From Verrucomicrobiota bacterium (lineage in GTDB: Bacteria; Verrucomicrobiota; Verrucomicrobiia; Limisphaerales; JAEYXS01): 44,665 nt of DNA. Within the stretch, counting starts at the first letter, position 1, and each line of letters opens with the position of its first letter. Made by a program: the position numbers and the translations under genes. A model generated the notes under the pieces. It saw only the letters and a program-made list of their open reading frames with translations, had not been told where the DNA came from and searched no databases. Location of the stretch: the NCBI GenBank assembly GCA_030834415.1, contig JAURFH010000003.1, positions 1 through 44,665 on the forward strand. The letters run 5' to 3'. Positions 8,852 to 27,660 of this stretch are shown here, piece after piece.

Positions 8852-10804
8852 ATGAACTTGATTAAGAAACTTCTCCTTAAGCGACCGCGCCTAGCCATGT
8901 CCTTGGCCAGCGCACTGGTCCTGCTGGTCGCATTTACCATATTACGCATGGCACTGGCGCTCATGTTCCCACCCGCCACACCGGTTTCGGCGGGGGCCTG
9001 GGTGCTCACTTTTATTGTGGGGTTGCATCTGGATGTGGTCATGACCGCCATCCTGCTCCTACCGCTGGCCATCTGGACCACCATGTTGGCTAAGCGCGAT
9101 TGGTCCACTGGCTGGCGGCGTATACTGATGCTCATTGCATTCAGCCTGGGCTGGAGCATCCTGATCTTCAACCTGGCTGCCGAAGGCTTCTTCTTTGAGG
9201 AATTCCAATCGCGCTACAACACCGTGGCCATTGATTATCTCATCTATCCGCATGAAGTGTTCGTCAATATCTGGGAGAGCTACCCAGTGGTTTGGATTGT
9301 TTCTGCGTGCTTGATCGCAGGCATCTCCGTTACCCTATTTATCACCCGTCTGGCCAAACCCGGTTGGTCAACTCCTAAGGATTACCGCGCTGGCATCGGT
9401 TGGGCTCTGGCCGCCGTGGTCTTGGGCTTCAGTGCCGGCCGACAGGAAAGTCATGTCAGCGATGAACGCTCCGTCAATGAACTTGCCGGCAATACGTTCT
9501 CTTCGCTCCTCTACGCCGCCACCACGCGGAATCTCGATTACGCCGCCTTTTATCCCACCATGGAGCGTGATGAGGCATTTCGTCGCGCCAAAAAGATCGT
9601 CCTTAATCCCGGCGAATCCTACACCGGCGGAACCCATGATCTCTGGCGCAAAGTTCCCGGCGATCCGTCTCGCCCCAAGCTCAATGTCTGCCTGTTGCTC
9701 GAGGAAAGTCTCGGCTCTGAGTTTTGGGGCGCTTTGGGACGTAAGGAACCTTCCCTAATGCCACTCATGGACGAAGTGGCCACCAAGGAAGGCTGGCTCT
9801 TTGATAACATCTATGCCGATGGCAACCGCACTATCCGTGGTTACGAAGGTGTCTTCAGCAGCTTCCCGCCATTACCTGGAGATTCCATCGTCGCCCGCGA
9901 CCGCACGGAGAATGTCGAGACCATCGCGCAAGTGCTGGGCCGCGACGGTTACGAGACCATGTTCGTCTATGCCGGCCGCGGGGTGTTTGATGGCACTGGC
10001 AAATTCGCGAAATCCAATGGCTGGAAGAGTTTCTTGGAGCTGAAAGATTTCAAAGAACCCACCTTCACGACCGTCTGGGGCGTATGCAATGAAGACCTCT
10101 ATGATCGTCTGCTCGTGGAGATGCGGGGCTATCACGATGCAGGCAAGCCCTTCCTCATGACCAGCATGTCCGTCTCCAATCACAAGCCCTACACCTATCC
10201 CGCCGGGCGTATCCCCGAGGCCCCGAACCGCACGCGCACGAACGCCGTGAAGTATTCCGACTACGCCCTTGCTCGCTTTTTTGAGCAGGCCAAAAAAGAA
10301 CCGTTCTGGAAAGACACCATCTTCGTGGTCGTGGGCGATCACGGCGCTCGTGTGTATGGCAGCCAAAGCATTCCCATCCGCTCCTATGAAGTGCCCTTCC
10401 TTGTTTTGGGACCCGCCGTAGTCTCCGAGCCGAAACGCACCTCCACACTGGGTTGCCAACTCGACATCATGCCGACAGTTCTGGGCATGATCGGTCGCCC
10501 CTATGAGACATCGTTCTTCGGTCACGACCTGCTCAAGGTGCAACCCGAGCATGAGCGCGTATTACTGAATCATAACCGCTCAGTCGGCATCTATGCCGAC
10601 CAACGACTGGTGGTGTTCAGCCTGAACAAACAGGTGGAGTATTTCACCGGCGATCCCAAAACCGGCCAGATGCAACCGACCACGGTGACAGATGAGAAGA
10701 TGAAAGAACTCGAACTGGATGCCACCGCCTTGTTTCAGGCCGGGGATGATCTCTATATGAACCGCCGCTACACTTACGGTGGCTCGGGCACTAAGGCGCC
10801 TTAG
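8852..10804 (+). CDS. LTA synthase/MdoB-like membrane transferase (alkaline-phosphatase fold)
   Basis: A 650-residue protein with about five N-terminal membrane helices (residues 12-190), followed by a periplasmic sulfatase/alkaline-phosphatase-fold domain. Visible catalytic positions: E284/E285 in 'LLLEESLG', nucleophile T327 in 'NRTIRGYEG' (a Thr, as in LtaS and OpgB, not the Cys or Ser of true sulfatases), 'SNHKPYTYP', and D496-H497 in 'VVGDHGARVYG'. In the family such enzymes move phosphoglycerol or phosphoethanolamine from phospholipids onto glycans, teichoic acids or lipid A-like acceptors. It starts 11 bases after the pump gene, so it is probably in the same transcript, linking envelope modification with metal efflux. 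Its last 14 bases overlap the end of the convergent CxxCH gene. The acceptor is unknown. Confidence 0.88.
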   Translation: MNLIKKLLLKRPRLAMSLASALVLLVAFTILRMALALMFPPATPVSAGAWVLTFIVGLHLDVVMTAILLLPLAIWTTMLAKRDWSTGWRRILMLIAFSLGWSILIFNLAAEGFFFEEFQSRYNTVAIDYLIYPHEVFVNIWESYPVVWIVSACLIAGISVTLFITRLAKPGWSTPKDYRAGIGWALAAVVLGFSAGRQESHVSDERSVNELAGNTFSSLLYAATTRNLDYAAFYPTMERDEAFRRAKKIVLNPGESYTGGTHDLWRKVPGDPSRPKLNVCLLLEESLGSEFWGALGRKEPSLMPLMDEVATKEGWLFDNIYADGNRTIRGYEGVFSSFPPLPGDSIVARDRTENVETIAQVLGRDGYETMFVYAGRGVFDGTGKFAKSNGWKSFLELKDFKEPTFTTVWGVCNEDLYDRLLVEMRGYHDAGKPFLMTSMSVSNHKPYTYPAGRIPEAPNRTRTNAVKYSDYALARFFEQAKKEPFWKDTIFVVVGDHGARVYGSQSIPIRSYEVPFLVLGPAVVSEPKRTSTLGCQLDIMPTVLGMIGRPYETSFFGHDLLKVQPEHERVLLNHNRSVGIYADQRLVVFSLNKQVEYFTGDPKTGQMQPTTVTDEKMKELELDATALFQAGDDLYMNRRYTYGGSGTKAP

Positions 10805-12131
10805 CTGTATTCCGCCAGTAATCCGGCAGGTCTTTCTTGGTCTCGAGCAGTATCTCCAAGATAGCTTGCCGCGATTCCTTGCTGACCCGCGCATAAGCCT
10901 CTCCGGTCTCAGCCCCGGTGAGGACATCATACATCCGTCGATAGACGAGTTCTTTGGCTTCCGGCGGTAATTGCTCAAAGACATCCGAGTAGATCAGATA
11001 ACTGCACGGATACTTCAACAATCGCGTCTGCAGATCCAAGTCCCGGAAAGATCGGCCCTTGCTGTCACGCGGGCCTTGCTTTTGGAATTCTTCCGCGAAC
11101 TCGCTGGTTCCTTTCACCGGACTAGGCAACGGGACTTCATCCGCAAAGAGCAGGTAACGCACAAACCCATCCACGATCTGGCCGAGATGCCTCGTGTGTT
11201 GATACATATAGAGATGGATGCGCGTCTCGTAATTCAACCGCGTGATGTAATTGTGCAGATGCGCCTGATGTTCAAACGTCATCAAGGCCACGATATCGCT
11301 CCCGGGCTCCGGATATTTTGATACATCGAAGAACTGGTCCAATTGCTGGAGACTGCTCATGTACCCGGGCGTTTCCTCCTGTTTCTTGAACGCAGCTTCA
11401 CCCATCAGATTACCGTTGTGCACCATCTTGCCCGCTAAACCGGAAACATACCAACCAGCCCAGCGCTTTTCGAATGACGTTTTATGGCTCACCATCATCG
11501 AGCCGTTGAACATATCCACCTTGCCTTCTTCATCCGGGATGAAAGAGCGCGCCAAGTGCCCCGGCACGCCCATGTTCCGCGTGGAGGCGTGACACTCCAG
11601 ACATTGATTGTCTCGCCGCATGCGCGGATTCTTCAAATCACTCTGGTCCAAAGTATAGAACACCCCGCCCAGTTTCGGATCAGACGAGGCGATCTCGATG
11701 ATGGGCGATCCCGGCACATAGCCCACATAGACATCGTCATTGAAGAACAAAGCCCTTGGATTCTTCGGCCCGATGAGATGCCGCTGCAAAGAAGTCTTCG
11801 AGAACACCAGCATCTGGGAAGATACGGGTATGTTCAGCTCCTTCAATAACGACGGCAGCAGCCCGAACTTCTCATCCGCCTTCAACCGTATCTCTTCGTA
11901 GTCCAGCTTGCGCTTGAGCACCGCCACAGGATCCGTGGCTCTCACATGCGGGTAATCGATGATCTCCTCATCGAAGGGCATCATCTGATACGACCCCTGA
12001 AAATCCACCGGCTCTCCCGCCATCGCACCAATCGCCGACACACTGAAGAATAACCTCACTAACACCCCTCGCCATATCTGCCAGCGGTGCAATCTGCCTG
12101 CTAATATTTTAAAGGAGTATTTCAGATACAT
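10791..12131 (-). CDS. Exported protein with one c-type heme motif (CLECH)
   Basis: A 446-residue protein with a long positively charged N-region and a hydrophobic signal segment ending 'SVSAIGAMAGE'. A single CxxCH site (CLECH, residues 177-181) should bind one covalent heme. The rest does not look like a compact cytochrome c: long charged helices, a 'GWYVSGLAGKMVHNG' segment, 'MTFEHQAHLHNYITRLNYE' and 'HLYMYQHTRHLGQ' give many His residues that could serve as a distal ligand or bind a second metal. I do not recognise a named family beyond 'c-type cytochrome-like exported protein'. It is the last gene of the minus-strand array and is separated from the phosphatase gene by 80 bases. Its 3' end overlaps the convergent transferase gene by 14 bases. 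Confidence 0.72.
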   Translation of the reverse strand: MYLKYSFKILAGRLHRWQIWRGVLVRLFFSVSAIGAMAGEPVDFQGSYQMMPFDEEIIDYPHVRATDPVAVLKRKLDYEEIRLKADEKFGLLPSLLKELNIPVSSQMLVFSKTSLQRHLIGPKNPRALFFNDDVYVGYVPGSPIIEIASSDPKLGGVFYTLDQSDLKNPRMRRDNQCLECHASTRNMGVPGHLARSFIPDEEGKVDMFNGSMMVSHKTSFEKRWAGWYVSGLAGKMVHNGNLMGEAAFKKQEETPGYMSSLQQLDQFFDVSKYPEPGSDIVALMTFEHQAHLHNYITRLNYETRIHLYMYQHTRHLGQIVDGFVRYLLFADEVPLPSPVKGTSEFAEEFQKQGPRDSKGRSFRDLDLQTRLLKYPCSYLIYSDVFEQLPPEAKELVYRRMYDVLTGAETGEAYARVSKESRQAILEILLETKKDLPDYWRNTAKAP

Positions 12132-12211
12132 CTATTAAGACTCAATTGCCCGCTCTTGCCAACCCTCTATTGCTGGGATTGCACCGTAGGCTGACCTGCA
12201 TGCGGTCGTGG

Positions 12212-14833
12212 TTATACTTTGACCTTTAGCTTCTCTTTATTACCCGAAGCGGCCGCCAATCCCTTAACCTGCTTGCTCTTACCGCTTTCCGGATCGGAAA
12301 CCTTGACCGTATAGCTGCCGTTCGCAAAGATATGCGGCTGGAATTTGGTGGACTGTAAGCGCAAGGCGTAGACCAGTTCACCGGTCTTCTCCTCGAACAC
12401 CTCCACCAGCGGCTGTTTCACGCCCTCGATATCCAAGGTCGGCAAGTGTGCCGTAGCTTTGCGTGCATAGTTCTCCGTGACATCCACCACCACCGGCCAG
12501 CCAGGGAATTGCCCACCCGGCTTTGTCGGGTCCGTCGTGTATGGCCAACAATCGATGGTGATCTTCCGCTTCTTTTTATCGAAGCGCACTAAACCCAAAC
12601 CGCTCGTCTTGGCCACCACTTGTTCCATGACCGGCTTCGGCGGCTGATCTGGTCCATTCACGAACGCACGCACCGTCATCGGATTATCAAAATGATCTAA
12701 GAAATCACCCAGTTCACCTTTGGTGCCCGTCTTGGCATTTCGACCGGTCTTAGCGGGACGCCACCACCGGGGATAACCCACATTCACCGCCGGACCGGCA
12801 AAGGCTAAGCCCGCATCCTTGTGCGTATCCACGCCATAATGCACCACCGCCGGGAGATGTTGATCCCCCGCGATGTGAAACGCGAACGCCTTACGGATGA
12901 TCGCAAGCGCTTCATTACGCGGCGTCTGTGGCCAACCATTTGCATCATAATCTGCGCGCAATTCACCATCCGGCCCGCCATGCGTAGTGGCCATGGCCGT
13001 GAAGATGGTCTGCGAGATGATCGATTTCATCTCCGCATCCTTCCAATCCGTCACCCAGTCACGCAGGAACTGCATCTGTTTGTCGCCCAGCAATTGCAGT
13101 CCTGGCAGATCAGCCGTCTTGGGATCGAAGTTCAGCCCCAGCACATGATCACCGCGGGATGTATCTGTCTTGGGCACCTTGCCTTCAGGTCCGGACTTGT
13201 ATTGCCGGTCGGCCAGCACCGCGAAACTCACACCGCCATAGGTAAGCGGTCCGTAATAATTCGTCGTGCCACGCTTGCAGGGCGTGGGGTCATACGGGTC
13301 CGGATGATGCGAGGCTTGCGTGCGATGCACCACATTCACCCACGTCGCTTCCATGTCGTAACCGCCCGCTTCCTGAGTGGTCTTGCGCCCGTCACCGGCT
13401 TCACCCCAGAGATTGCCCTGATAGACATCATGATCATCCGGCAAGGAGATGCTCGGACGGTCCTTCGTCAATTCACGCCAGGTCCAACCGTGGAAATACC
13501 ATTTGCGAAGATAATCAATGATGGCGGGCTCCAATGGCGCACGCTGCACGCCATATCCACCGCAGCTCTCGTAGAACTGATCACCCACAAATGCCAACAG
13601 GTCCGGATCCAGTTTCGCCATGTTCCCCACCAACTCTGTGTTCGGGAAGATGGCATGGATATTACACGACACATCGCCCACCGTCAGCACGGGCTTGTCT
13701 TTCGGATCTTTGCGGATCAAACCCGCCCATTGATGCAAGGTATCGCGACCGCGCGTCTTGAAAACATATTGCAGACGATAAGGCACTTCCTTGTTCCCAT
13801 CCCAATTCTCGATGCGGAACGTGACCGTGCGCGCTTCCGGATGGATGGTTTCCTCGCCCGCCGTCTTCCACGCTTTGCCCTGCTTGAATTGCAGTCGGAC
13901 AGTCTGTGAATCATCCGCGCCGATCGGCGGCATCTGGGCCGTGAGCTTCATTACCCCTTTGCTCAACGTATACTGCGAGAAAAGAATGGGCCCAAAAGTC
14001 TGCGACTCATTCACCGTCAGCTTCGTGCCGCTGACCTGCCAGTCGCTGAACCAAAACTCGCCCGTGCCAAAGCTCGCCTCGGCTGCCTTGCCCTTGGCTT
14101 TGCCGCCGCCTCGTGCTGCGACCGAGCCGAAATTACTGATGAGCGCGATGTTACCATTGAGTTGGTTGCTGCTGATCTTGTCTACCTCAGATTGACCTAG
14201 CTGCTTACGCGTGGCGGCATCAAACACCGTCAGCTTCACCTTGTAAGCATCCCCATCCGGCACCACCTGCACACTCAACTCAACTGCTTCCCGGTCTAGA
14301 TCTACTAGCACACGACTGTTGGCCGCAGAACCCAAAGAACCAGTGAACATTCCACCCTCGGAATTGACCCCGATATGAAACCCGCTGTTCGGTGCCGGCC
14401 AGAGATTGTTCCGGAAATCATGCCGCTCCGGGTAATCCTTCAACGTACCCAGAATCCCCAAACGCAAACCGAATGAACCCTTGCCGGCTTTCAACTTGCC
14501 ACCGCCTACGCGACCGATCTTCACGCTCATCTCGATGGTGCCACGCTGCGGACCCACTTGCCGGGTGAGCAGATGCAATTGGCGGTCCATCGCGGCCTTC
14601 ACGCACTCCACACGACCGTTCTTTACCTGCCAGTCCTGCATCGGGTTTGCCCAATACTCAGGTCCGATCCAGACCCGGTCCAGGCTCTCCTGCCATTTGC
14701 TCTTGAATGCAGCCGTCGCATCGGCTGCCTGTGCCAGTTGGGGCAGCACTTTGACGGCCACCACGGTGCCGGCTGTGGCAGCTGCCGAGTGGGCGATAAA
14801 TTTGCGGCGCGTTACTTTCCGTGGGGATTTCAT
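12212..14833 (-). CDS. PhoD-like Tat-exported metallophosphatase with N-terminal jelly-roll region
   Basis: An 873-residue protein with a twin-arginine signal ('TRRKFIAHSAAATAGTVVAVKV', ending near 'LAQAADA'). Residues about 45-280 look like a LamG/concanavalin-type beta domain, followed by a beta linker like the PhoD N-domain. The PhoD-type phosphatase core begins near residue 395 with 'VGDVSCNIHA' and continues with 'FVGDQFYESCGGYG', 'LPDDHDVYQGNLWG' and 'AGDQHLPAVVHYG', which provide the metal-binding Asp and His residues. PhoD enzymes hydrolyse phosphodiesters and monoesters outside the cytoplasm using Ca and Fe. The beta domain in front suggests binding to a polymer or surface. It follows the esterase gene by 71 bases in the same direction. 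The total length is well above classical PhoD (about 550 residues). Confidence 0.85.
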   Translation of the reverse strand: MKSPRKVTRRKFIAHSAAATAGTVVAVKVLPQLAQAADATAAFKSKWQESLDRVWIGPEYWANPMQDWQVKNGRVECVKAAMDRQLHLLTRQVGPQRGTIEMSVKIGRVGGGKLKAGKGSFGLRLGILGTLKDYPERHDFRNNLWPAPNSGFHIGVNSEGGMFTGSLGSAANSRVLVDLDREAVELSVQVVPDGDAYKVKLTVFDAATRKQLGQSEVDKISSNQLNGNIALISNFGSVAARGGGKAKGKAAEASFGTGEFWFSDWQVSGTKLTVNESQTFGPILFSQYTLSKGVMKLTAQMPPIGADDSQTVRLQFKQGKAWKTAGEETIHPEARTVTFRIENWDGNKEVPYRLQYVFKTRGRDTLHQWAGLIRKDPKDKPVLTVGDVSCNIHAIFPNTELVGNMAKLDPDLLAFVGDQFYESCGGYGVQRAPLEPAIIDYLRKWYFHGWTWRELTKDRPSISLPDDHDVYQGNLWGEAGDGRKTTQEAGGYDMEATWVNVVHRTQASHHPDPYDPTPCKRGTTNYYGPLTYGGVSFAVLADRQYKSGPEGKVPKTDTSRGDHVLGLNFDPKTADLPGLQLLGDKQMQFLRDWVTDWKDAEMKSIISQTIFTAMATTHGGPDGELRADYDANGWPQTPRNEALAIIRKAFAFHIAGDQHLPAVVHYGVDTHKDAGLAFAGPAVNVGYPRWWRPAKTGRNAKTGTKGELGDFLDHFDNPMTVRAFVNGPDQPPKPVMEQVVAKTSGLGLVRFDKKKRKITIDCWPYTTDPTKPGGQFPGWPVVVDVTENYARKATAHLPTLDIEGVKQPLVEVFEEKTGELVYALRLQSTKFQPHIFANGSYTVKVSDPESGKSKQVKGLAAASGNKEKLKVKV

Positions 14834-14904
14834 AGGCAGATTAAAATACGAAGTGAACGAAACGAAAAGTATTAGTTCGCAAGGATTGGTGGCTCCTACA
14901 GCCC

Positions 14905-15846
14905 CTAGCGCAACTGCACTTTCAGAAAATCAGCGATCTCTTCCACAAACGGAGTGGACCAAGGATTACTGCCCCAGCAGCCGTGCTTGCCTCCTTGCAC
15001 GATGACCAACCGGTTCGGCACCTTCAATGCATCCAACTGCTTGCGGAACTCGACATAACGTTCGCCCGGTGAATCAAATTCACCTTCGATCAACAGTATC
15101 GGCGGCGTGTCCTTGGAAAGATGCGTGATAGGTGAACCTGCTACATACAATTCCTTCTTCTCCGCATACGTCCCGCCAAAAAACACCAATTGGTTCTGGA
15201 TCGGATTCTTAGTCTCTGCCGCTCGCGTAGCCTGATCCACGCCCGCCCCCATCATCACGCATGCTTGTATTGCGCTGGATTGCTTTTCGTTTCCGCCAGC
15301 GCCCTCGAATAACTTGCTCTTGCCCGTGCCTGCCAGCATACCGACCAAATGCCCACCGGCCGAACCACCCACACCCCCGATGCGTTTCGGATCGATATGA
15401 TACTTCTTCGCATTCGCGCGCATCCAGCGCACGGCCGCTTTGCAATCTTCCACCGCGCCCGGGAACTTCGCCTCACCGGCCAGGCGATAATCGATCGTCA
15501 CTGCCACAAAACCCTTCACGGCGAGCTGCTGGGCCATGGATCGGAATGCTTCCTTGTTGCCACCCGTCCAGCCACCACCATGCACGACCACCACTCCGGG
15601 AAACGGGCCATCTCCCTTCGGAGCGTATAGATCCAGTTTCAGCTCTCGCCCTCCACCCGTGCCGAAGACCAAGTTCTCATGCGCCACCACGCCCTCTGGA
15701 ACCTTGTCAGACGCCTTGGATGGTTTCACATCTTTCGGCACTTCTACGAATTTATCCACCTTCACACCCGGCGCGGGTTTGAACGACGCGGCGTGCAAAT
15801 TGAAAATCCCCAATGAAATGGCGGTCAATATAACTGCTGTTCTCAT
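14905..15846 (-). CDS. Exported alpha/beta hydrolase (BD-FAE/Aes-like esterase)
   Basis: I use ATG 15846 rather than the track's upstream start, because it gives a Sec signal (MRTAVILTAISLGIFNLHAAS) and avoids a 56-base overlap with DUF1501 B. The 313-residue protein has the family's oxyanion motif 'VVHGGGWTGG', the nucleophile elbow 'GVGGSAGGHLVG' (GxSxG), the acid in 'EGEFDSPGE' and the catalytic His in 'GGKHGCW'. Such enzymes, common in polysaccharide-degrading Verrucomicrobiota and Planctomycetes, remove acetyl or feruloyl-type esters from sugars. The window does not show which ester is cut here. It starts 40 bases after DUF1501 B and precedes the phosphatase gene. Confidence 0.85.
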   Translation of the reverse strand: MRTAVILTAISLGIFNLHAASFKPAPGVKVDKFVEVPKDVKPSKASDKVPEGVVAHENLVFGTGGGRELKLDLYAPKGDGPFPGVVVVHGGGWTGGNKEAFRSMAQQLAVKGFVAVTIDYRLAGEAKFPGAVEDCKAAVRWMRANAKKYHIDPKRIGGVGGSAGGHLVGMLAGTGKSKLFEGAGGNEKQSSAIQACVMMGAGVDQATRAAETKNPIQNQLVFFGGTYAEKKELYVAGSPITHLSKDTPPILLIEGEFDSPGERYVEFRKQLDALKVPNRLVIVQGGKHGCWGSNPWSTPFVEEIADFLKVQLR

Positions 15847-15886
15847 GTCTAAAGATAGACGGGCCCAAGCACCCGCTACGTTACGA

Positions 15887-17389
15887 TTAACTGATGATTT
15901 CTTTGATGATGTGCCCATGCACATCGGTGAGACGGCGATCAATGCCGTTGTGCCGGAATGTCAGCTTGGTGTGTTCCATGCCTAACAGACGCAATACCGT
16001 GGCGTGGATGTCATACACCAGCGTAGGGTTATCGCGATCCAACGGCTTGTAACCCCACTCATCGCTCTCCCCATGTGTGACGCCTCCCTTGATGCCGCCA
16101 CCGCAAAGCCAGTTCGTGAAGCAATACGGGTTGTGATCGCGGCCTTTTCCACCTTGGGTCGAAGGCATGCGTCCGAACTCGGTCGTCCACAGGATGATGG
16201 TGTCGTCCAGCAAGCCACGCTGTTTCAGATCTTGGATGAGTGCCGCCGCCCCTTGCGCCATGCCCCGCGCCAAGGGACCGTGATCGCGCTCCACATCTTC
16301 ATGCGAATCCCAGTTGCGCCGCGGAAAACCATTGTCATTGCCCGACCAGATCTGCACAAAGCGCACGCCACGCTCCAACAGCCGACGCGCCACCAGACAT
16401 TTGCGCCCGAAATAATCTGCCTCCTCGCGGGCATTGATCTCCTTCGGCCACTCCTTCGTCGTCCGGTCGACGCCATACATATCGAGGATGTAGTCCGGCT
16501 CTTTGGTGATATCAAGCGCCTCCGGTGCGCTCAATTGCATGCGAGCCGCCAACTCATAGCTACGGATACGCGATTCCAGCCGTCCATCCCCCTCGCGGTG
16601 TGCCGCATACTCTTCATTGAGTGAAGCCAACAAGCGATGCGCCTCGGCCTCACTGGCAGGGGTGATGTAATTCCCGTTCTTATGCGGATACAGGTCTGCG
16701 ATGGGATTTTCCGCTCCCGGATAGATCACCGTGCCGCTGTGTTGCGAGGGCAGGAACGCCGCGCCCCAATTCTTCACCCCATTCGAAGCCAGCCCCCGAT
16801 GATCTGGCAACACGACAAATGTCGGCAGATTTTCGTTCTCACTTCCCAAGCCGTAACTGATCCAGCTCCCCATCCCCGGAAACCCCGGCAATTGAAAACC
16901 TGTCGCTTGCAGCAAAGTTGCTGCGCTGTGCACACCCGACTTACCGACGAGATTGTGGATGAACGCGATGTCATCCACACACGGCCCCAAGGCAGACACT
17001 GCCTCGCTGATCTGCTTGCCGGATTGCCCGTATGGTTTGAAATCCCAGACCGGCTTCTTCCACGGGCCCAGACCGTTCTGAAACGCTTCGACCTTCTCAC
17101 CGAAATCCGACACCTTGCCGTCTTGCTTCACCAACTCCTGTTTGAAGTCCCACAAGTCGATATGACTGGCGGCACCCGCCATGAAGAGTTGCACGACGCG
17201 TTTGGCCTTGGGTGGGAAATGCGGCAGTAACTTCTTCTCATTCGAACTCGCATCTGCAGCCAACAATCGCTCTTGCCCTAACAAACCCGCCAGCGCGATA
17301 CCACCAAGCCCACCACCACTCGACCACAAAAACTCGCGACGGCTCATCGGCCGACGAGCTGATACTTTATGCCAGGGTGATTGGTTCAT
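15887..17389 (-). CDS. DUF1501 protein (sulfatase-like fold), copy B
   Basis: A 500-residue protein with a Tat signal ('SRREFLWSSGGGLGGIALAGLL', after a basic N-region). The body has the DUF1501 hallmarks: 'KAKRVVQLFMAGAASHIDLWDFK', 'DIAFIHNLVGKSGVHS', 'EFGRMPSTQGGKGRDHNPY' and 'RRLTDVHGHII' near the end. The fold is related to alkaline phosphatase/sulfatase enzymes, but the usual nucleophile is not obvious, and no reaction is established for the family. These genes normally sit right after a PSD1-cytochrome gene. Here the ATG overlaps the TGA of the PotD-like gene (ATGA), so translation is probably coupled to that gene instead. It is clearly paralogous to DUF1501 A upstream. Confidence 0.93.
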   Translation of the reverse strand: MNQSPWHKVSARRPMSRREFLWSSGGGLGGIALAGLLGQERLLAADASSNEKKLLPHFPPKAKRVVQLFMAGAASHIDLWDFKQELVKQDGKVSDFGEKVEAFQNGLGPWKKPVWDFKPYGQSGKQISEAVSALGPCVDDIAFIHNLVGKSGVHSAATLLQATGFQLPGFPGMGSWISYGLGSENENLPTFVVLPDHRGLASNGVKNWGAAFLPSQHSGTVIYPGAENPIADLYPHKNGNYITPASEAEAHRLLASLNEEYAAHREGDGRLESRIRSYELAARMQLSAPEALDITKEPDYILDMYGVDRTTKEWPKEINAREEADYFGRKCLVARRLLERGVRFVQIWSGNDNGFPRRNWDSHEDVERDHGPLARGMAQGAAALIQDLKQRGLLDDTIILWTTEFGRMPSTQGGKGRDHNPYCFTNWLCGGGIKGGVTHGESDEWGYKPLDRDNPTLVYDIHATVLRLLGMEHTKLTFRHNGIDRRLTDVHGHIIKEIIS

Positions 17390-18447: not shown

Positions 18448-21400
18448 AAGTGAATTCGTTGAGGTTCAACATGAGCCGGCAAGTATTCACCAGGCCGAAC
18501 TGTTTGGCGTAAGCGGCCAGTTTTTTACTTTCTGCAGCTGTGAGTTCGCGCCCGGTGGCGGCATAGAAACCGCGCTCGACCTGCGCAGTGATGTCGCCGC
18601 CTTCCGCTTCAAGCTTTTCCGCGAAGTGCTTCGCCATGGTCACCATCAAGCAGTTATTCAACAGCGCCAGCGCTTGCAACGGAGAGAGGCTTTCATTGCG
18701 TTTGCCGACTTGGATGGACGGATCGGCGCAATCCAGCGTGGTCATGAACGGCTGCATCTGTGAACGCACGATGAACCGATAGATGGAACGGCGGTGTGAT
18801 TTCGGGTCTTCAGGGTCGTGCAGTTGATACTGGTAGTGCGGTGAATGCTCCGGCTTCTCGATCACAAAATCCTGAAAGGCCGGGCCGCCCATTTTCAAAT
18901 CCAGCTTGCCGCTCACCAGCAGCACACTGTCTCGGATACTTTCCGCATCCAGCTTGCGCCGGTTCATGTGCCACAAGTAGCGGTTATCCGCATCGATCTG
19001 CGCGGCTGTCGGATGGTCTGCATTTGAGACCTGACGGTATGTGGCACTCGTCATGATGAGCTTATGCAAACGCTTCAGCGACTGCCCGCCATCGCGGAAC
19101 TCCACCGCCAACCAATCGATCAGCTCGGCATTGCTAGGTTCGACACCCATGTGGCCGAAATCATTCGGGGTCTCTGCCAACCCTTTGCCGAAATGATACA
19201 ACCAAACACGGTTCACAATGCTCCGCCAGGTGAGCGGGTTATTCTCATCTGACAGCCACTTGGCCAATTCAGCCCGCCGTTCGCCTTCCGGTCTCTCCAC
19301 CGTATCCTCAAATCTTCCCGGCAACCAGGAGATGGCTTGCACCGCCCCCGGTATGACTTCTTGCCCCGGTGTCAGCACACTGCCGCGGTTCAGCAATTGG
19401 ATGGGGCGCGGCTTGCCACCATTGGCACCTGTCCCGGCAAAATTTCCCGAACCGTAATGGACCGTTCCGGCATAGACCACATCGGGCTTGGGAAAGGCCG
19501 TCAACTCAACTTTGACCCTTTTCAGCTCTTGCTCGATATCAGCTTTCTCTTTCTTTGTGCTGGCAACCAGCAGACTCCCCACCAGTTTTTCGCGTTGAGC
19601 TTGCAGCTCGGCCAGTTGCCCCGAAGAGATCGGGTCTGGCTGAGGTGCGATGGCATCCACAAGGTTCGCCTTTCGCCAACGCGGTGGTGCTTCGATAGAA
19701 TCCAGTGCCGTGACGGGAGCATTGGCTGAGAGGTTGTGTCCCGTGCTGTCGTAGACTTCCAGTTCGGCCAGCGCCAAGATGTAATCATCCTTACGCAGCG
19801 CGAGCTTGGTTGCCGTCACTCGTACATAGCGCCCGGTCGCGCCTGACGATGTGAAGGCTTGCGGTGTCGTGCCGGGATTGCGCACATCGGACTTGTCTTG
19901 CGTAGTGATGATTACGCGTCCGGTCTTGAACTCAGGATCATCCGAAGTCTCGATCTTGAAGCGTAGGGGATAGCCAAAGCCCGCCCCGATTTTATTGTAA
20001 TCATCGTAGCACGGCTGCAGCACCACTTTCTCGATGACCACACTCTTGCCTAAATCAACCTGCACCCACTTCACCGCATCCTGCACCTTCGAGATCGCGC
20101 TGTGATAGCCGAATTCCGAACGCGTGTTGCCCTGGCCTTTCTTGGATGCTGCCGCGATCTGCTTGTCCAGTGCAGCCAATCCCTCTCCGCCGAGTTTCTT
20201 GATCTGCTCATCGATGAGCTTCTTGCGTGCCAACAGACCACGTTGCTGATTCTCCAAATCGTTGAAACGCTTGGTGAGTTCTGTATCCGCGAAGTATTTC
20301 TTGTCCGTCCGGTCCAACGCAGCGAACACCGCCTGCAATGAGTAGTAATCCTCCTGTGAGATGGGATCGAACTTGTGGTTGTGACATTGCGCACAGCCGA
20401 CGGTGAGGCTGTTAAAGGTCTGCATGGTGTTCGCCACCATGTCATCGCGATCCAAGTGACGCGCGATTTTGCCATCCGTCTTGCTCTCGGGCACTTCGGC
20501 GTGACCGATGTAATCCCACGGCCCGGCGGCGATGAACCCCAAGGCCTCGATGCCATCTCTCGTATCCGGATAAAGGACATCGCCCGCGATCTGCTCCTGC
20601 GCAAAAAGGCTGTAAGGTTTGTCTTCGTTGAAAGCCCGGATGACGTAATCCCGATACGGCCAGGCATTAGGCCGTGGCTTGTCTTTGTCATACCCGTGCG
20701 TGTCACCGTAATGCACCACATCCAGCCAATGACGTGCCCAGCGTTCACCGTAGTGAGGCGAGGCAAGCAGGCGGTCCACGAGCTTCTCGTACGCTTGCGG
20801 GTCTTTGTCCGCGAGAAACGCCTCAATCTCTTCAGGTTTCGGCGGCAGACCGATGAGGTCAAAGTAAACACGCCGTATCAAGGTGCGGCGATCCGCTTCC
20901 TTGGACTGCGGCAAGCCCTTCTCCTGCAATTTCGCAACGATGAAAGCATCGACCGGGTTCTGGACATTAAGTTTAGGATCAGAAATCTTTGGAACTGCTG
21001 GTCGTGATAGTCGCTTGAAGGACCACCAATCCATCCGGTCCGCCAGTCTCAGGCTCGCACTTTCCGGCCACACTGCCCCTTGATCAATCCAGGCACGCAA
21101 CAAGCCGATCTGCTTCTCCGTCAACGGCTCCCCTTTGGGCGGCATCTTGATCTTTTCATCCTGTCCGCTGACAAAACGGATAAGCGGACTCTCGCTGCTC
21201 TTGCCCGGGATGATGTTGGGGGCGTGATAGTCGCCGCCATGCAACGCGCTGGCTTTTGCATCCAGCCGGTAACTGTTCTTCTGCTTCTCCGGCCCGTGGC
21301 AATCCAGACACGCCTGCTGAAATATCGGCTGGATGTCGCGGACGAAATCGATCTTCGTGCCTTCAGCCGCTGAACAGACACCGGCAAAGCATACTGACAG

Positions 21401-21475
21401 CATTGCGCTCAATACTGCCCCACAGCGCCACTGAGGCATCATCGATTTAGGGTGTATGGCGCAACTGAACCGCAT
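18437..21475 (-). CDS. PSD1 and planctomycete cytochrome C protein with discoidin-like domain, copy B
   Basis: A protein of about 1012 residues (ATG 21475; the track uses GTG 21478). The signal segment ends near 'CFAGVCSAAEG'. Domains in order: PSCyt1 with the heme motif CLDCH at about residue 57 and a likely Met ligand in 'IKMPPKGEPLT'; DUF1549 (PSCyt2) with 'YFDLIGLPPKPEEIEAF', 'LLASPHYGERWARHWLD' and a second CAQCH at about 362; a helical linker; an F5/8-type C (discoidin-like) domain around 470-590, ending 'ILALAELEVYDS'; then DUF1553/PSD1 with 'RSIVNRVWLYHFGKGL' and 'SATYRQVSNADHPTA'. The role is not established experimentally; these are exported heme proteins often tied to polysaccharide use. 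Its stop overlaps the start of the PotD-like gene. Confidence 0.93.
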   Translation of the reverse strand: MRFSCAIHPKSMMPQWRCGAVLSAMLSVCFAGVCSAAEGTKIDFVRDIQPIFQQACLDCHGPEKQKNSYRLDAKASALHGGDYHAPNIIPGKSSESPLIRFVSGQDEKIKMPPKGEPLTEKQIGLLRAWIDQGAVWPESASLRLADRMDWWSFKRLSRPAVPKISDPKLNVQNPVDAFIVAKLQEKGLPQSKEADRRTLIRRVYFDLIGLPPKPEEIEAFLADKDPQAYEKLVDRLLASPHYGERWARHWLDVVHYGDTHGYDKDKPRPNAWPYRDYVIRAFNEDKPYSLFAQEQIAGDVLYPDTRDGIEALGFIAAGPWDYIGHAEVPESKTDGKIARHLDRDDMVANTMQTFNSLTVGCAQCHNHKFDPISQEDYYSLQAVFAALDRTDKKYFADTELTKRFNDLENQQRGLLARKKLIDEQIKKLGGEGLAALDKQIAAASKKGQGNTRSEFGYHSAISKVQDAVKWVQVDLGKSVVIEKVVLQPCYDDYNKIGAGFGYPLRFKIETSDDPEFKTGRVIITTQDKSDVRNPGTTPQAFTSSGATGRYVRVTATKLALRKDDYILALAELEVYDSTGHNLSANAPVTALDSIEAPPRWRKANLVDAIAPQPDPISSGQLAELQAQREKLVGSLLVASTKKEKADIEQELKRVKVELTAFPKPDVVYAGTVHYGSGNFAGTGANGGKPRPIQLLNRGSVLTPGQEVIPGAVQAISWLPGRFEDTVERPEGERRAELAKWLSDENNPLTWRSIVNRVWLYHFGKGLAETPNDFGHMGVEPSNAELIDWLAVEFRDGGQSLKRLHKLIMTSATYRQVSNADHPTAAQIDADNRYLWHMNRRKLDAESIRDSVLLVSGKLDLKMGGPAFQDFVIEKPEHSPHYQYQLHDPEDPKSHRRSIYRFIVRSQMQPFMTTLDCADPSIQVGKRNESLSPLQALALLNNCLMVTMAKHFAEKLEAEGGDITAQVERGFYAATGRELTAAESKKLAAYAKQFGLVNTCRLMLNLNEFTFVD

Positions 21476-21571
21476 CACCAGGTCTTTCTGGAGGCAAAGA
21501 TTGCTTCGGATGGATTCATGGTAATGTGATGATTCTAAAGCCTCTTCACATCCGCTGCCATGTCAATTTGC

Positions 21572-23026
21572 TCACGCCAGGATATTCTTAAGGAGGTGCC
21601 CGTGCACATCCGTGAGACGACGCTCGGCACCGTTGTGGTAGTACGTCAGCTTTTCATGGTCCAAACCCAGCAGATGCAAGACAGTGGCGTAGAAGTCATA
21701 GACGCTGGTGATATCCTCGGCCGCACGACGGCCAAACTCATCGGTCGCCCCGTAGCTTACGCCGCCTTTGATACCTGCGCCCATCATCCAAGTGGTGAAT
21801 GCATCGGGATTGTGATCGCGACCATCAGTGCCTTCCTGGCGCGTGGGCATACGACCGAACTCAGAAGTCCACAGCACCAAGGTATCTTCCAACATACCTC
21901 GTTGTTTCATATCAGTGAGCAAGGCCGCCGTCGGTTGATCGAAGATGGGGCAATGGCGCTCGTAATCTGCCTTGAGCGTCTTATGTGCATCCCAATTCAG
22001 GAGGCCATCCACCGCTGAGGCGCGTGAGGCACAATAAAGACTCACGTAACGCACGCCTTGCTCCAAGAATCTCCGCGAGAGCAGGCAATTGCGTGCATAC
22101 GCCGCCAGCAACGGGTTCTTGCTGTCCGTTCCATACAGGCGATGCAAGTGAGCCGGTTCCCTGGAGATGTCAGCGATTTCCGGCGCGGTGAGTTGCATGC
22201 GCGCCGCCAGCTCATAAGCAGCCATGCGGGCCTTTAATTCACTCTCACCCGGATGCCGCTCGGCATGCTCGCGATTGATCGTCTTCAGGAAATCACGCGT
22301 CGCCTGTTCCTCGCTCACACTGATGGAAGCCGGACGGGCGAGATTACGGAGCGGTTGCTGGGCGGACATGGCCACCGCTTGATAATCAGCGGGTAAGAAG
22401 CCGTTCGACCAATTCGCCTTACCGTTGGGCGGTTCACCGCGCACATCTTGGATGGCCACATAGGTCGGCAGGTTGCGATTCAAGCTGCCGAGCGCATAAC
22501 TGGTCCACGCGCCAGCCGCCGGAAAGCCTTCACGGACAAAACCACTGTTCATGAAGATGCAGCCGGGACCATGTGTATTCGTGCGGGACATCATGCCGTG
22601 CAGGAACGCGATATCATCCACATGCTGGCTCATGTGCGGCAACATGGAGGAGATCATCTTGCCGCTCTGGCCACCGGGTTTGAAGGCCCACGGCGATTTC
22701 ATCAAGGGACCATTCTTCCCTTGGAAGCTCACCATGTTCTCTTCCCCGGGCAAAGGCTTGCCATCGTATTTCTCTAACGACGGTTTGTAGTCCCACAAGT
22801 CCACATGCGAGGCCGCACCTGGGCAGAAGATGTGTAGCACTTGCTTGGCCTTCGGCGCGTATTGCGGCACACCTGGCTTCCAACCCGCCGGGGCGGTGGC
22901 AAGAGTGGAGGCAAAGAGCTCATCCGCCAATAAACTGGTCAGCGCGACGCCCGTCAGCCCGCCACTCAGGCGCCCGAGGAAATTTCGGCGGGTCAATGAC
23001 AGCAGTTCGTTTGATTTCGTATTCAT
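21572..23026 (-). CDS. DUF1501 protein (sulfatase-like fold), copy A
   Basis: A 484-residue protein with a Tat signal ('LTRRNFLGRLSGGLTGVALTSLLADE'). It has the family blocks 'KQVLHIFCPGAASHVDLWDYK', 'DDIAFLHGMMSRTNTHGPG', 'EFGRMPTRQEGTDGRDHNPD' and the terminal 'RRLTDVHGHLLKNIL'. It lies 15 bases after PSD1-cytochrome A, the usual pairing for these families, which suggests that the two exported proteins act together. Compared with copy B it shares the block order and C-terminus but differs in loops; for example, this copy has 'RASAVDGLLNWDAHK' where B has 'NDNGFPRRNWDSHE'. No catalytic reaction is known for the family, so substrate and activity are left open. Confidence 0.93.
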   Translation of the reverse strand: MNTKSNELLSLTRRNFLGRLSGGLTGVALTSLLADELFASTLATAPAGWKPGVPQYAPKAKQVLHIFCPGAASHVDLWDYKPSLEKYDGKPLPGEENMVSFQGKNGPLMKSPWAFKPGGQSGKMISSMLPHMSQHVDDIAFLHGMMSRTNTHGPGCIFMNSGFVREGFPAAGAWTSYALGSLNRNLPTYVAIQDVRGEPPNGKANWSNGFLPADYQAVAMSAQQPLRNLARPASISVSEEQATRDFLKTINREHAERHPGESELKARMAAYELAARMQLTAPEIADISREPAHLHRLYGTDSKNPLLAAYARNCLLSRRFLEQGVRYVSLYCASRASAVDGLLNWDAHKTLKADYERHCPIFDQPTAALLTDMKQRGMLEDTLVLWTSEFGRMPTRQEGTDGRDHNPDAFTTWMMGAGIKGGVSYGATDEFGRRAAEDITSVYDFYATVLHLLGLDHEKLTYYHNGAERRLTDVHGHLLKNILA

Positions 23027-23041
23027 GTGCTGTGCGATGAG

Positions 23042-25996
23042 TTACTCCAGATAAATCAATTCGTTGGCATTCAGCAACGCACGACAAAACGCGTTGATTC
23101 CGTGGGCTTCGATCAAGGCCACGGCAGTCTTGAGTTCGTGTTTGCTGGGCTGTCGCTGGAAAGCCAACGTGTAAGCCCGTTGCACGGCTTCAACGGCATC
23201 GTTGCTGCCACCTTCTTTTTCGATTCGCTCCGCGAGTGCGGCGGCCATGTCCAAAGTGAAGCTGTAGTTCAGAAGTGTGAGCGCCTGCAATGGAGTCGTC
23301 GTCTTCGCCCGACGCGGCACGCCGAAGGCATTGTCCGGTAGATCGAAATCACTCAGCACATCCACCACGGACGCGCGCGCGCTTTGATGATATACCGCCC
23401 GGCGATAGGTCTCCGGGCCGACCTTGTCGAGCGGCGCGTAGGTGGAGACGTTGTCGGACTTGTATTCGTAGAGACGGAAACCCGGCCCGCCCATGCGTTC
23501 ATCCAACTTACCAGTCAGTAACAGAATCGTGTCGCGCACCTCTTCAGCACTCAAACGGCGTGTAGGGAAGCGCCAGAGGAAACGCGAATCTTTATCCACC
23601 CGGGCGGCCGATTCGCGGAACTCGGCAGACTGCTGGTATGTCTGTGAAAGCAGTATCTCGCGATGCAAGGCTTTGAGTTTCCATCCGCTCGCATGCAATC
23701 GGTTAGCGAGGTAATCGAGCAACTCCGGATGCGTGGGCAAGCCGCCAAGGAAGCCGAAATCACTGGGCGTATCCACGATGCCGGTGCCGAAGTGGTAGTG
23801 CCACACGCGATTCACCAGCACGCGGGCGGTGAGCGGGTTCTCATCGCTCACGATCCATTTGGCGAGTTCAAGACGGCGTGCACCTTCCGGCGCCTTGGCA
23901 TCCAGCTCATAAGACTTGGTCACCTGCTCGAGCACGTTGAGACTGGAGGGCTTCACGATGTCGCCGGGCTTCATCGGGTCACCGCCCTTCTGCACCACGG
24001 TTGGTTCATCCGGTTGCCGGAAACTACCGACCCAAGCCGTGGGCAACGGCGGGATGGCGCGAAGTTTACGATCCACTTGCGCGATGGCCTGATTCAACTC
24101 CGCAAGCTGTTTGCGATCTTCATCGGTCGTTGCGCGACGCGTGATGCGCTCATTAGCCAGGGCGGATGTGAAGGGCTTGCGATCAAAAGAATCTGCGGCC
24201 TTGTGCCAGTCCTTGCCATCCAGCGAGGTGAAGACCTCATACTCGATGACCGCCGGAGCGGCTCCGGCAATCACGCGATCATCCGGGCCGGTGTAATTGT
24301 TGAAAAGCGTGATGCGGTCGATGTCCTCAGCTTTCGCCAACGTGATGGTGAGCTGGGCGGGTGAGCCGATGAACCAGCGCGCGCCGAATTTGCCGTCATT
24401 CACCAGATTCACATCATAGGCGTTGGCGAAATCCTTCGCATCCCGGCTCTTGGTGCCTTCTGCTTTCGCCCCGTTAATGGCGAGGGCGACATTGCGTTCG
24501 CCAGACCAAATCTGCACCTCTTCCAATTTGCCGCCGACTCCGCTGGCGGGATTGCTGGAGGTAGCGAGAAATTCAAAGCGCACATAGCGCGCTTTGACCG
24601 GCGCAAAGCCCTCATCCGTCTTCCGCGGACTGGGCGCGGGACGAGGCATCGCGACGGCTTCCAGCTTTTTACCACGCTCGACAATCTCTTTCTCCACTTT
24701 GGTTTTTGCCGCGATGAGGCGCCCGCGTTCTTCATTCAGCGGCTTGACCGCTTCCGCATGTTCCTTGCGTTGCTCCGCCGTGGTCAGCACGCGAGCCCCG
24801 TGTTTCGCTCCCTCGAACACGGACTTTATACGGTAATAATCTTCTGTGGGGATGGGATCGAACTTGTGGTTATGGCAACGGGCGCAATTGATTGTAAGCC
24901 CTAGGAAGGCAGAGCCAGTCGCCGTGACCATGTCATCAAGCGTGGCCGCGCGGATATTGGCGGCAGCCACTTTATCCTGATTCCCCACATCGTCGTAAGG
25001 ACCGAGCGTGACGAAGGCAACACCGACTTCAGTATCCGGCTTATCTTTCCCAACGACATCACCGGCAAGGTGCTCGATGATGAACTGGTTGAAAGGCTTG
25101 TCCTCATTGATCGAGCGGATGACGTAGTCGCGGAAGGGCCACGCGTTATCGATGATAAAATTACGTTCAAATCCATTACTCTCACCAAAGCGGACGATGT
25201 CCAGCCAATGACGACCCCAGCGTTCGCCGTAGTGCGGCGAGGCCAGTAAACGATCTACGAGTTTGGCGTAGGCATCCGGTGATTTGTCACCTTCGAAAGC
25301 AGCCACTTCCTCAGGCGTGGGCGGCAGACCAGTAAGGTCGTATGTAATTCTCCGGATGAGTGCGCGGCGTTCGGCGGGCGGATTGGGTTGCAGATCTTTT
25401 TTGGCAAGCTCGGCGAGGATATAGCGGTCGATGGGATTCTCCTGCCACGCTTTGAGATCAAACTGGGTGCGATTGGCTTTGGAAACTTGCTTGAGCTTGG
25501 ACTTCAACTCACTGACTTCAGGCGGTTGCGCCTTGCTCAAAGGTTGCAAGGACCACCAAGTCTTGTCGGCTCGCTTGGCTTCGATGACCACGCCTTCACG
25601 CGGGTCAGGAGCACCGAGCTTCACCCAGGTCGTGAGATTGGCGATCTCTTCGGCCGTGAGCTTTTTCTTCGGTGGCATCTCCTCATCTTCGATCTCGTGG
25701 CGCACGAGTTTCAGCAGCAGGCTGTTCTCAGGATTGCCGGAATCGAAAAGGGGCTTGCCGGATTCGCCGCCTTTGGCGATGCCCGCTTTGGAATCGAGAT
25801 ACAGACCTCCTTTAAGTTTCTTGGCCGTGGCGCTATGGCATTCGTAGCATTCTTTGACCAACAGGGGACGGATCTTTTGCTCGAAGAACTTGAGATGTTC
25901 AGCAGGAATCGTTGCGGCCTGTAAAGTCGGGCTCGACGCTGATGTGATCGCGGCAACAGTCAGCAAGAACCAGCCAAGTAGTGAACGTTTGCTCAT
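23042..25996 (-). CDS. PSD1 and planctomycete cytochrome C protein with discoidin-like domain, copy A
   Basis: A 984-residue exported protein with a Sec signal (MSKRSLLGWFLLTVAAITSASS). PSCyt1 carries CYECH at residues 50-54, with a likely Met ligand in 'EEMPPKKKLT'. DUF1549 follows ('YDLTGLPPTPEEVAAF', 'LLASPHYGERWGRHWLDIVRFG'), with a second CxxCH, CARCH, at 371-375 in 'CARCHNHKFDPIPTEDYY'. A discoidin-like segment near 475-610 ('ARYVRFEFLATSSNPASG', 'KLEEVQIWSGE') precedes the C-terminal DUF1553/PSD1 domain ('ARVLVNRVWHYHFGTGIVDTPSDFG'). Its ATG overlaps the TGA of the GntR-type regulator, so it is the first structural gene of the array. Two heme sites and a possible carbohydrate-binding discoidin unit suggest redox chemistry at an extracellular or periplasmic polymer, which is inference. 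Confidence 0.94.
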   Translation of the reverse strand: MSKRSLLGWFLLTVAAITSASSPTLQAATIPAEHLKFFEQKIRPLLVKECYECHSATAKKLKGGLYLDSKAGIAKGGESGKPLFDSGNPENSLLLKLVRHEIEDEEMPPKKKLTAEEIANLTTWVKLGAPDPREGVVIEAKRADKTWWSLQPLSKAQPPEVSELKSKLKQVSKANRTQFDLKAWQENPIDRYILAELAKKDLQPNPPAERRALIRRITYDLTGLPPTPEEVAAFEGDKSPDAYAKLVDRLLASPHYGERWGRHWLDIVRFGESNGFERNFIIDNAWPFRDYVIRSINEDKPFNQFIIEHLAGDVVGKDKPDTEVGVAFVTLGPYDDVGNQDKVAAANIRAATLDDMVTATGSAFLGLTINCARCHNHKFDPIPTEDYYRIKSVFEGAKHGARVLTTAEQRKEHAEAVKPLNEERGRLIAAKTKVEKEIVERGKKLEAVAMPRPAPSPRKTDEGFAPVKARYVRFEFLATSSNPASGVGGKLEEVQIWSGERNVALAINGAKAEGTKSRDAKDFANAYDVNLVNDGKFGARWFIGSPAQLTITLAKAEDIDRITLFNNYTGPDDRVIAGAAPAVIEYEVFTSLDGKDWHKAADSFDRKPFTSALANERITRRATTDEDRKQLAELNQAIAQVDRKLRAIPPLPTAWVGSFRQPDEPTVVQKGGDPMKPGDIVKPSSLNVLEQVTKSYELDAKAPEGARRLELAKWIVSDENPLTARVLVNRVWHYHFGTGIVDTPSDFGFLGGLPTHPELLDYLANRLHASGWKLKALHREILLSQTYQQSAEFRESAARVDKDSRFLWRFPTRRLSAEEVRDTILLLTGKLDERMGGPGFRLYEYKSDNVSTYAPLDKVGPETYRRAVYHQSARASVVDVLSDFDLPDNAFGVPRRAKTTTPLQALTLLNYSFTLDMAAALAERIEKEGGSNDAVEAVQRAYTLAFQRQPSKHELKTAVALIEAHGINAFCRALLNANELIYLE

Positions 25997-26712
25997 GCTG
26001 AAGCCCTCCCTTTCCCACGTTGCTTCAGCGCTTTGGCAATATCGAGGGCAGCAGCTTCCAGATGCATCTTCATCGCAGCGACTGCTTTCTCTGGCTGCTT
26101 CGCCTCGATGGCGGCCAGGATTTGACCGTGATGATCGACGGCGACTTCATTCCCCGCGGCAGCCAGCGTGGTCTTGCGGCTGACACGACCCAAGTCGGCC
26201 AAGGAATCGAGGAGCAAGGTGCAGATCTCATTCCCGGCGGCAACGGCGATGAGGCGATGAAATTCCAGATCGGCCTCGATGGAATCTTCATCCGTCTCCG
26301 CAGCGGCAAGACGGGCATGATTTTGCCGCAGAGCCCGCAGATCGGCTGTTGTGGCCTTGCTCGCGGCGATACGTGCCAGACCGGGCTCGATGAGCAGACG
26401 CGCCTCAGTCAGTTGACGAAGGCGCTCGGCGGTATCCGGGATAAGCAGGGAGACGGAGCCATTCAGCGGCTTGTGCAGCTTATCCACCACCTTGATACCC
26501 ACACCATGGCGGATTTCCAGCAACCCTTGTTGCTCCAAGCGCTTGGTCGCCTCACGGACGACCGGGCGGCTGACGCCCAAGCGCTCGGCCAGTTCACGCT
26601 CTGACATCAGCCAGCCATCATTGGCGAACCCCTCATCACGAATCTGGCCGGAAATCTGACGGCACACCTCTTCCACCAGAGACGCCGGGCGTTCGATAGT
26701 TTGCAGGGACAT
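25993..26712 (-). CDS. GntR/FadR-family repressor with FCD ligand domain
   Basis: I take ATG 26712 as the start (239 residues); the track's GTG 26730 lies inside the operator palindrome. Residues about 15-80 form the winged helix, with the recognition helix in 'SERELAERLGVSRPVVREATKRLEQQGL' and the wing 'EIRHGVGIKVVD'. The rest is an all-helical FCD domain with the metal-ligand pattern 'EADLEFHRLI', 'AVDHHGQIL' and 'AAMKMHLEAA', which in this family binds a small organic acid or sugar acid with a divalent metal. The TGA overlaps the start of PSD1-cytochrome A (ATGA), so the regulator and the first exported gene are made from one transcript. It is the likely local regulator of the whole minus-strand array and of itself. 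Confidence 0.92.
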   Translation of the reverse strand: MSLQTIERPASLVEEVCRQISGQIRDEGFANDGWLMSERELAERLGVSRPVVREATKRLEQQGLLEIRHGVGIKVVDKLHKPLNGSVSLLIPDTAERLRQLTEARLLIEPGLARIAASKATTADLRALRQNHARLAAAETDEDSIEADLEFHRLIAVAAGNEICTLLLDSLADLGRVSRKTTLAAAGNEVAVDHHGQILAAIEAKQPEKAVAAMKMHLEAAALDIAKALKQRGKGRASA

Positions 26713-26729
26713 GGTAAGAGGTCTTACCA
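26712..26729. promoter_or_regulatory. Palindromic operator for the GntR/FadR regulator
   Basis: TGGTAAGA-GG-TCTTACCA is a palindrome with two perfect 8-base arms. TGGT...ACCA half-sites are typical of the FadR/PdhR branch of GntR regulators (family knowledge). It overlaps the regulator's start codon by one base and its predicted -10, an ideal place for autorepression. Confidence 0.72.
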
Positions 26730-26748
26730 CTACCTGCTAAGGCGTCAA
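26721..26748 (-). promoter_or_regulatory. Predicted promoter of the GntR-led array, overlapping the operator
   Basis: On the minus strand TTGACG (26748-26743) is followed after 16 bases by TAAGAC (26726-26721). Transcription would start within a few bases of ATG 26712, and no Shine-Dalgarno is visible, so a leaderless message is possible. The -10 match is weak. Confidence 0.4.
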
Positions 26749-26855
26749 GTCTGGATTGTTGATGAAGGTGAGAGCATTACTCAGGCACGCATTGATTCCA
26801 GCTGTTGATTAGGGCATCGTGGTGATTGAAAAACAAAGGTGATAAAGCATCGTCT

Positions 26856-27341: not shown

Positions 27342-27343
27342 GA

Positions 27344-27625: not shown

Positions 27626-27631
27626 TTCTCT

Positions 27632-27651: not shown

Positions 27652-27660
27652 TTCCCTCTC

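Follow-up and report, generated by a model that had tools for sequence, protein, structure and literature searches.

A genus-level array of two PSD1-DUF1501 pairs behind a GntR/FCD regulator and its conserved candidate operator in a Verrucomicrobiota bacterium

Do nine genes that follow each other on one strand, most of them for exported proteins, form one regulated unit, or are they common parts that happen to be neighbours? The question is raised by nine minus-strand ORFs (26712 to 10791) in the window, that is, in the whole 44,665-nucleotide stretch analysed here, a single contig from a draft genome of 4.5 Mb and 93.6% completeness. An earlier note on this DNA had read them as one substrate-induced envelope programme. 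In order of transcription, the array encodes a GntR/FCD regulator, PSD1A, DUF1501A, PSD1B, a PotD-like protein, DUF1501B, a BD-FAE-type esterase, a PhoD-like protein and a CxxCH protein (Table 1). Profile checks (Pfam, NCBIfam) found all ORFs and families of this consecutive run at the place and on the strand that had been claimed. N-termini read by eye backed the claim of Sec or Tat signals in eight of the nine products, with twin-arginine signals in both DUF1501 proteins and in PhoD (the latter also by TIGR01409) and Sec-like signals in the other exported products. Using Pfam, no glycoside hydrolase family was matched in the nine genes. Rfam and tRNA scans gave no match, and scans of viral contigs for DUF1501, PSD1 and CxxCH gave none either.

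Direct reading of the junctions bore out two of three overlaps claimed before, the ATGA at GntR/PSD1A and at PotD/DUF1501B, whereas the overlap of PSD1B and PotD holds only with TTG 18447 as the start of PotD; were the in-frame ATG some 39 bp further on used instead, a small gap would remain. The remaining gaps matched the claimed 15-93 bp: 15 bp between PSD1A and DUF1501A, 93 bp between DUF1501A and PSD1B, 40 bp between DUF1501B and the esterase if the latter begins at the ATG given in Table 1, and 71 and 80 bp at the esterase-PhoD-CxxCH junctions. Terminator-like sites in the region were not in excess (17 found versus 17.4 expected from shuffles), and neither were promoter-like sites when compared with shuffles.

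Table 1. Features of the array and its regulatory region (positions in the window).
Feature	Position	Strand	Evidence and remarks
GntR/FCD transcriptional regulator	25993..26712	-	PF00392 + PF07729; ATG start, GTG 18 bp upstream possible
PSD1A, exported PSCyt1-PSCyt2-PSD1 protein	23042..25996	-	two CxxCH heme motifs, C50/C53H54 and C371/C374H375
DUF1501A, twin-arginine exported (predicted)	21572..23026	-	PF07394; 66-77% orthologues in 6 families
PSD1B, exported PSCyt1-PSCyt2-F5/8C-PSD1 protein	18437..21478	-	domain profiles; orthologues adjoin DUF1501B orthologues
PotD-like orphan substrate-binding protein	17386..18447	-	profile and PDB matches; TTG start uncertain
DUF1501B, twin-arginine exported (predicted)	15887..17389	-	PF07394; 60-81% orthologues across the order
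BD-FAE-type alpha/beta-hydrolase esterase	14905..15846	-	PF20434; ATG at 15846, TTG-started ORF reaches 15942
PhoD-like phosphatase, twin-arginine exported (predicted)	12212..14833	-	PF09423, TIGR01409
CxxCH protein, unnamed family, single CLECH motif	10791..12131	-	no Pfam or NCBIfam match
Divergent cupin gene, ORF from first TTG	26826..27341	+	PF07883; regulator-linked in all three species
Candidate operator, perfect 18-bp palindrome TGGTAAGACCTCTTACCA	26712..26729	-	overlaps regulator ATG
-35-like block AGACTTGACG	26735..26761 (approximate)	-	candidate promoter of leaderless mRNA

In both congeners (G001 and G002), the regulator, PSD1A, DUF1501A, PhoD and CxxCH genes are co-directional, and a divergent cupin gene is common to both. 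The G002 array runs in one direction (GntR-PSD1A-GH5-DUF1501A-PSD1B-PDDEXK_3-DUF1501B-PotD-PQQ-PhoD-CxxCH), with PotD after DUF1501B and not before it, without the esterase, and with GH5, PDDEXK_3 and PQQ-like genes added. Two contigs carry the array of G001 between them: C418 has cupin-GntR-PSD1A, and C504 has PSD1A-DUF1501A-beta-helix-PQQ-PhoD-CxxCH. In this genome, which is 76% complete, the PSD1B, PotD and DUF1501B trio was not found, although its usual slot after DUF1501A is covered by sequence. The cupin-side flank of G001 matches neither the window nor G002, and no other window gene was matched in its 8.6 kb. The esterase had no match at the array position in either congener and is specific to the window; the replacing members across congeners are GH5, beta-helix, PQQ-like or PDDEXK genes. 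The gene-order comparison proposed earlier therefore gave a divided answer: the core is kept in both congeners, whereas the nine-gene set differs among them and was not found beyond the genus in the loci examined.

Together with the cupin and GcvH-like genes, the array forms a block whose orientation in the window is opposite to that in G002; it lies between a sulfatase-like gene and an aminotransferase. The inverted segment has the CxxCH gene at one end and the GcvH-like gene at the other (window 10804..28134), and the inversion gives a 14-bp tail-to-tail overlap of the CxxCH gene with the sulfatase-like gene. The ATGA coupling of GntR and PSD1A is missing in both congeners, which have a hairpin-bearing gap instead (CGCCG..CTCCG..CGGCG; L021:7954 and L094:10169). 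The same hairpin also follows the GcvH-like gene in the window (27651, minus strand), and none was found in 469 kb of other host-genome loci. The gap before CxxCH amounts to roughly 560 bp in G002 and is also long in G001, so that the tail of the array may be a unit of its own. Directly after the CxxCH gene, G002 carries a SUKH-family (immunity-like) gene (L022:6785-7240).

The regulator, a GntR winged helix-turn-helix joined to an FCD domain, has 81-82% orthologues in both congeners. It scored far below every NCBIfam cut-off for named equivalogs (NanR, PdhR, LldR and others; 136 versus 260 bits for NanR). It retains the pattern D148xxxH152, H194/H195 and H217, fitting an FCD metal site; with this pattern, and with carboxylates as effectors of other FCD regulators, a carboxylate effector is likely. 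The host genome encodes only two FCD regulators, one of which heads the array, and no match to the array's regulator, PotD or PhoD was present in any other fetched host-genome PSD1/DUF1501 locus.

At the start of the regulator gene lies the perfect palindrome TGGTAAGACCTCTTACCA, which has 8-bp arms and whose last base is the A of the ATG. It occurs once per genome in the host, G001 and G002, and is identical and in the same place in all three species; the DNA upstream has diverged except for AGACTTGACG. Likewise constant is the spacing TTGACG-16-TAAGAC-8-ATG, with a variable spacer sequence and with the weak -10 element, TAAGAC, inside the palindrome. We read the conserved palindrome and TTGACG spacing as a phylogenetic footprint. 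The placement of the site, its closeness to the ATG and the lack of an evident ribosome-binding sequence point to a leaderless, self-repressed promoter at the regulator as the likely arrangement. A TGGT...ACCA-type palindrome at the regulator's own promoter resembles operators of FCD-subfamily GntR regulators. A search for a wider regulon revealed no second host-genome copy with fewer than three mismatches, and palindrome-like matches in the host genome numbered 6, versus 15 for a reversed-pattern control. For the regulator's 43% relative in G027 and its 33% relative in G037, we found neither the palindrome in the upstream stretch read nor an array. The conserved palindrome is what is new here.

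The PSD1 and DUF1501 families had been called abundant yet uncharacterised, and both the genome and the literature agree. The host genome contains 42 PSCyt2 and 45 DUF1501 matches, mostly as adjacent pairs. In R. baltica each of the domains is present in 41 copies (PMC2754498), and in freshwater Verrucomicrobia PSCyt2 genes usually adjoin an unknown gene family, with a function that is not known (PMC5615132). The PSD1-DUF1501 pair itself is ordinary in the host genome, and the dedicated regulator is the unusual part.

A tree of the host-genome paralogues placed DUF1501A and DUF1501B as sisters (100/100) and PSD1A and PSD1B apart from each other. DUF1501B has one orthologue per genome (60-81%) in about 22 other families, with the next paralogues at 54% or less. 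Directly upstream of it, a PSD1B orthologue (46-64%) was found in 18 of the 20 evaluable families, as counted by reading the neighbourhood table (G009 ends too soon to be evaluated); the spacing is usually tens to a few hundred bases, and 1.4 kb in G026. G028 has its PSD1B orthologue in the DUF1501B cluster, not adjacent, and G039 has none. Each DUF1501A orthologue has a PSD1A orthologue beside it or no more than about 3 kb away, and G004 holds both pairs together (PSD1B-DUF1501B-DUF1501A-PSD1A), with no regulator in the stretch examined. When neighbouring PSD1 and DUF1501 proteins were compared across 21 host-genome pairs, their distance matrices correlated with r=0.79 (shuffle maximum 0.47). 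Orthologous pairs in other families and correlated distances indicate that the two pairs are old, cognate and independent, both apparently brought under one regulator by the genus. Gene order further indicates that PotD was inserted into an ancestral tight PSD1B-DUF1501B pair, and PDDEXK_3 likewise in G002. A 13-kb run of PSD1 and DUF1501 genes with PSD1B and DUF1501B orthologues was seen in G028 (L169, C18, 3919-16764).

PhoD is part of the array in G001 and G002 and mostly lies outside such arrays in other families; among its 60-67% relatives in G004, G028 and G007, only that of G028 has a PSD1 gene nearby. Of 58 relatives, 31 encode the CxxCH protein, and in the neighbourhoods that were read its gene is mostly not part of an array; the same holds for its 50-57% relatives in nine families; in G053 its gene precedes a PSD1-DUF1501 pair. 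The alignment of this family contains one invariant CxxCH and many further invariant residues, and a PDB search gave no convincing match. The array is adjoined by a gene of the sulfatase family (LtaS/phosphoglycerol-transferase-like, with a hydrophobic N-terminal half; window 8852-10804), which has a 74% counterpart at the other end of the inverted block in G002 and a 49% relative near the DUF1501B orthologue of G039. Beyond it lie genes for an outer-membrane efflux protein and then an AcrB-type pump (4386-8840); between the same neighbours in G002, neither has a match.

What might the pairs do? Both PSD1 proteins of the window combine PSCyt1, PSCyt2 and PSD1 domains with two CxxCH motifs, which marks them as predicted diheme proteins. 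M107 is a possible axial heme ligand, and the PSCyt1 part of the PSD1 profile has a match to the FoxE cytochrome (3.7e-6). PF07394 extends over nearly the whole of the DUF1501 proteins (447 and 462 bits versus a cut-off of 27), with an invariant twin-arginine (R13 R14) and invariant D79, D346, H348, E389 and H405. When compared with the PDB, the DUF1501 profile gave weak but consistent matches in one segment to sulfatases, LtaS and phosphonate monoester hydrolase (E 0.008-0.9); hhalign against the window's own sulfatase was negative. AlphaFold2 models of PSD1 and DUF1501 (two window copies) reached a pLDDT of 35 and were unusable. DUF1501 may have a remote sulfatase/phosphatase-like fold, and we tentatively suggest, at less than even odds, that a redox protein and a metallohydrolase act as a pair on carbohydrate-like material in the periplasm.

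With a probability of roughly 0.6, we favour a genus-level, locally regulated cluster composed of a self-repressing GntR/FCD switch, two cognate exported pairs and interchangeable accessories. Its basis is gene content, synteny and the conservation of the operator sequence and of the pairs, from which we infer repression, leaderless transcription, effector, periplasmic activity and substrate class. Most likely, GntR/FCD would bind its own palindromic operator overlapping the -10 element and the start codon, and so shut down a leaderless promoter that serves both the regulator gene and those downstream of it. Repression would be lifted by an effector, probably a small carboxylate like those of other FCD regulators. 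The genes behind the regulator would supply two cognate sets of exported proteins, PSD1A plus DUF1501A and PSD1B plus DUF1501B, in each of which a diheme protein has its partner. Their targets may be carbohydrate-like substrates, oxidised or esterified, met in the periplasm or on the cell surface, and the accessory proteins that join in (esterase, PhoD, GH5, beta-helix, PQQ-like) would be interchangeable. In this model, the PotD-like protein would be a late insert that binds its ligand without a dedicated transporter. Against the model stand the strongly varying membership among the three species, the gaps in the congeners, where the GntR/PSD1A coupling is missing, the weak -10 element and, as regards DUF1501, PDB hits that are each weak and the negative comparison with the window's own sulfatase.

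An alternative, which we consider unlikely yet worth serious attention, limits the reach of GntR to its own gene, and perhaps the cupin or PSD1A, and takes the rest for a loose multi-promoter neighbourhood of hydrolases and PSD1-DUF1501 pairs, as elsewhere in the genome. Fluid gene content, the congeners' long gaps before CxxCH and hairpin-bearing gap after GntR, the solitary PhoD and CxxCH genes of other families, and multi-pair PSD1/DUF1501 clusters without GntR (for example in G028, G004 and G019) would all fit. It accounts less well for the tight junctions of the window (ATGA and 15 bp at the first genes, ATGA at PotD/DUF1501B) and for a regulator, PSD1A, DUF1501A, PhoD and CxxCH that stayed together despite inversion and changed flanks. 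Of the proposed single envelope programme, what stands is a dedicated regulator and conserved candidate operator at the head of a co-directional array in three species; what falls is the fixed nine-gene set. PhoD and CxxCH are widespread without the array. Judged from the sequences, the array is a real unit at genus level made of parts known to be common, and "nine-gene programme" is too strong a term for a fluid membership and pairs that are separate old modules. The PSD1/DUF1501 set had also been called doubled, and two pairs are indeed present. An origin in which a single pair was tandemly duplicated to serve one substrate is very improbable: the sister relation of the DUF1501 proteins would suit it, but the PSD1 proteins are not sisters and other families have separate orthologues of each pair, as expected of old independent modules and not of a local doubling. 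We rejected tandem duplication of the pair, which the host-genome paralogue tree contradicts for PSD1.

The PotD-like protein matched a spermidine/putrescine-binding chain in the PDB (E 4e-58) and scored below the PotD equivalog cut-off (206 versus 582 bits, NCBIfam). Among the 13 residues that we take to be the ligand set of E. coli PotD (numbered as in the precursor, with the alignment as check), ten are kept (W34, T35, E36, Y37, S83, D168, E171, W229, D257, Y293) and three changed (Y85 to A, W255 to F, Q327 to R). The kept residues, and a 54% relative in G019 that sits between two BPD_transp_1 permease genes, would suit a functional polyamine receptor or scavenger, one that sets the signal of the array. 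We doubt this reading, since no PotB-like permease was matched in the host genome or in G001, and G001, in which PotD is absent, retains GntR and its candidate operator. Nor did we find, beside the PotD-like gene in the array, the permease genes of a polyamine ABC uptake system, and the earlier description as an orphan binding protein holds. A 59% match occurs in Chthoniobacter flavus. Slightly more doubtful still is the idea that the two pairs under one leaderless, self-repressed FCD-GntR switch include the PotD-like protein as ligand-binding subunit or sensor of PSD1B-DUF1501B, and not for transport; if true, it would provide a first defined inducer and a handle on PSD1/DUF1501 function.

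PSD1 and DUF1501, with about forty copies each in the host genome and abundant in related phyla, have no known function. For the favoured locally regulated cluster, the dedicated regulator and its single conserved candidate operator offer a route to the inducing compound. Fixed partners, and one orthologous pair kept in about 20 families, point to a physical or functional partnership, and PSD1B-DUF1501B is the pair most worth purifying.

Compared with known systems, the regulator shares the winged helix-turn-helix, the FCD domain and the metal-site pattern with FCD-subfamily GntR regulators (NanR, PdhR, LldR, UxuR/ExuR) but precedes genes for exported heme proteins instead of a sugar or acid catabolic operon. 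The PotD-like protein keeps most of the presumed ligand residues of the polyamine-binding proteins PotD/PotF, with no transporter genes adjacent. With verrucomicrobial polysaccharide utilisation clusters, the array shares hydrolases that are exported and domains associated with carbohydrates (GH5 and beta-helix in the congeners, F5/8C in PSD1B), whereas it has no sugar importer, SusCD or match to a glycoside hydrolase family. A further likeness is to the PSCyt2/PSD1-DUF1501 pairs of Planctomycetes and Verrucomicrobia, with the same domains and adjacency; what differs here is that two orthologously distinct pairs come with a dedicated FCD regulator and a conserved candidate operator, and that PotD is inserted inside one pair.
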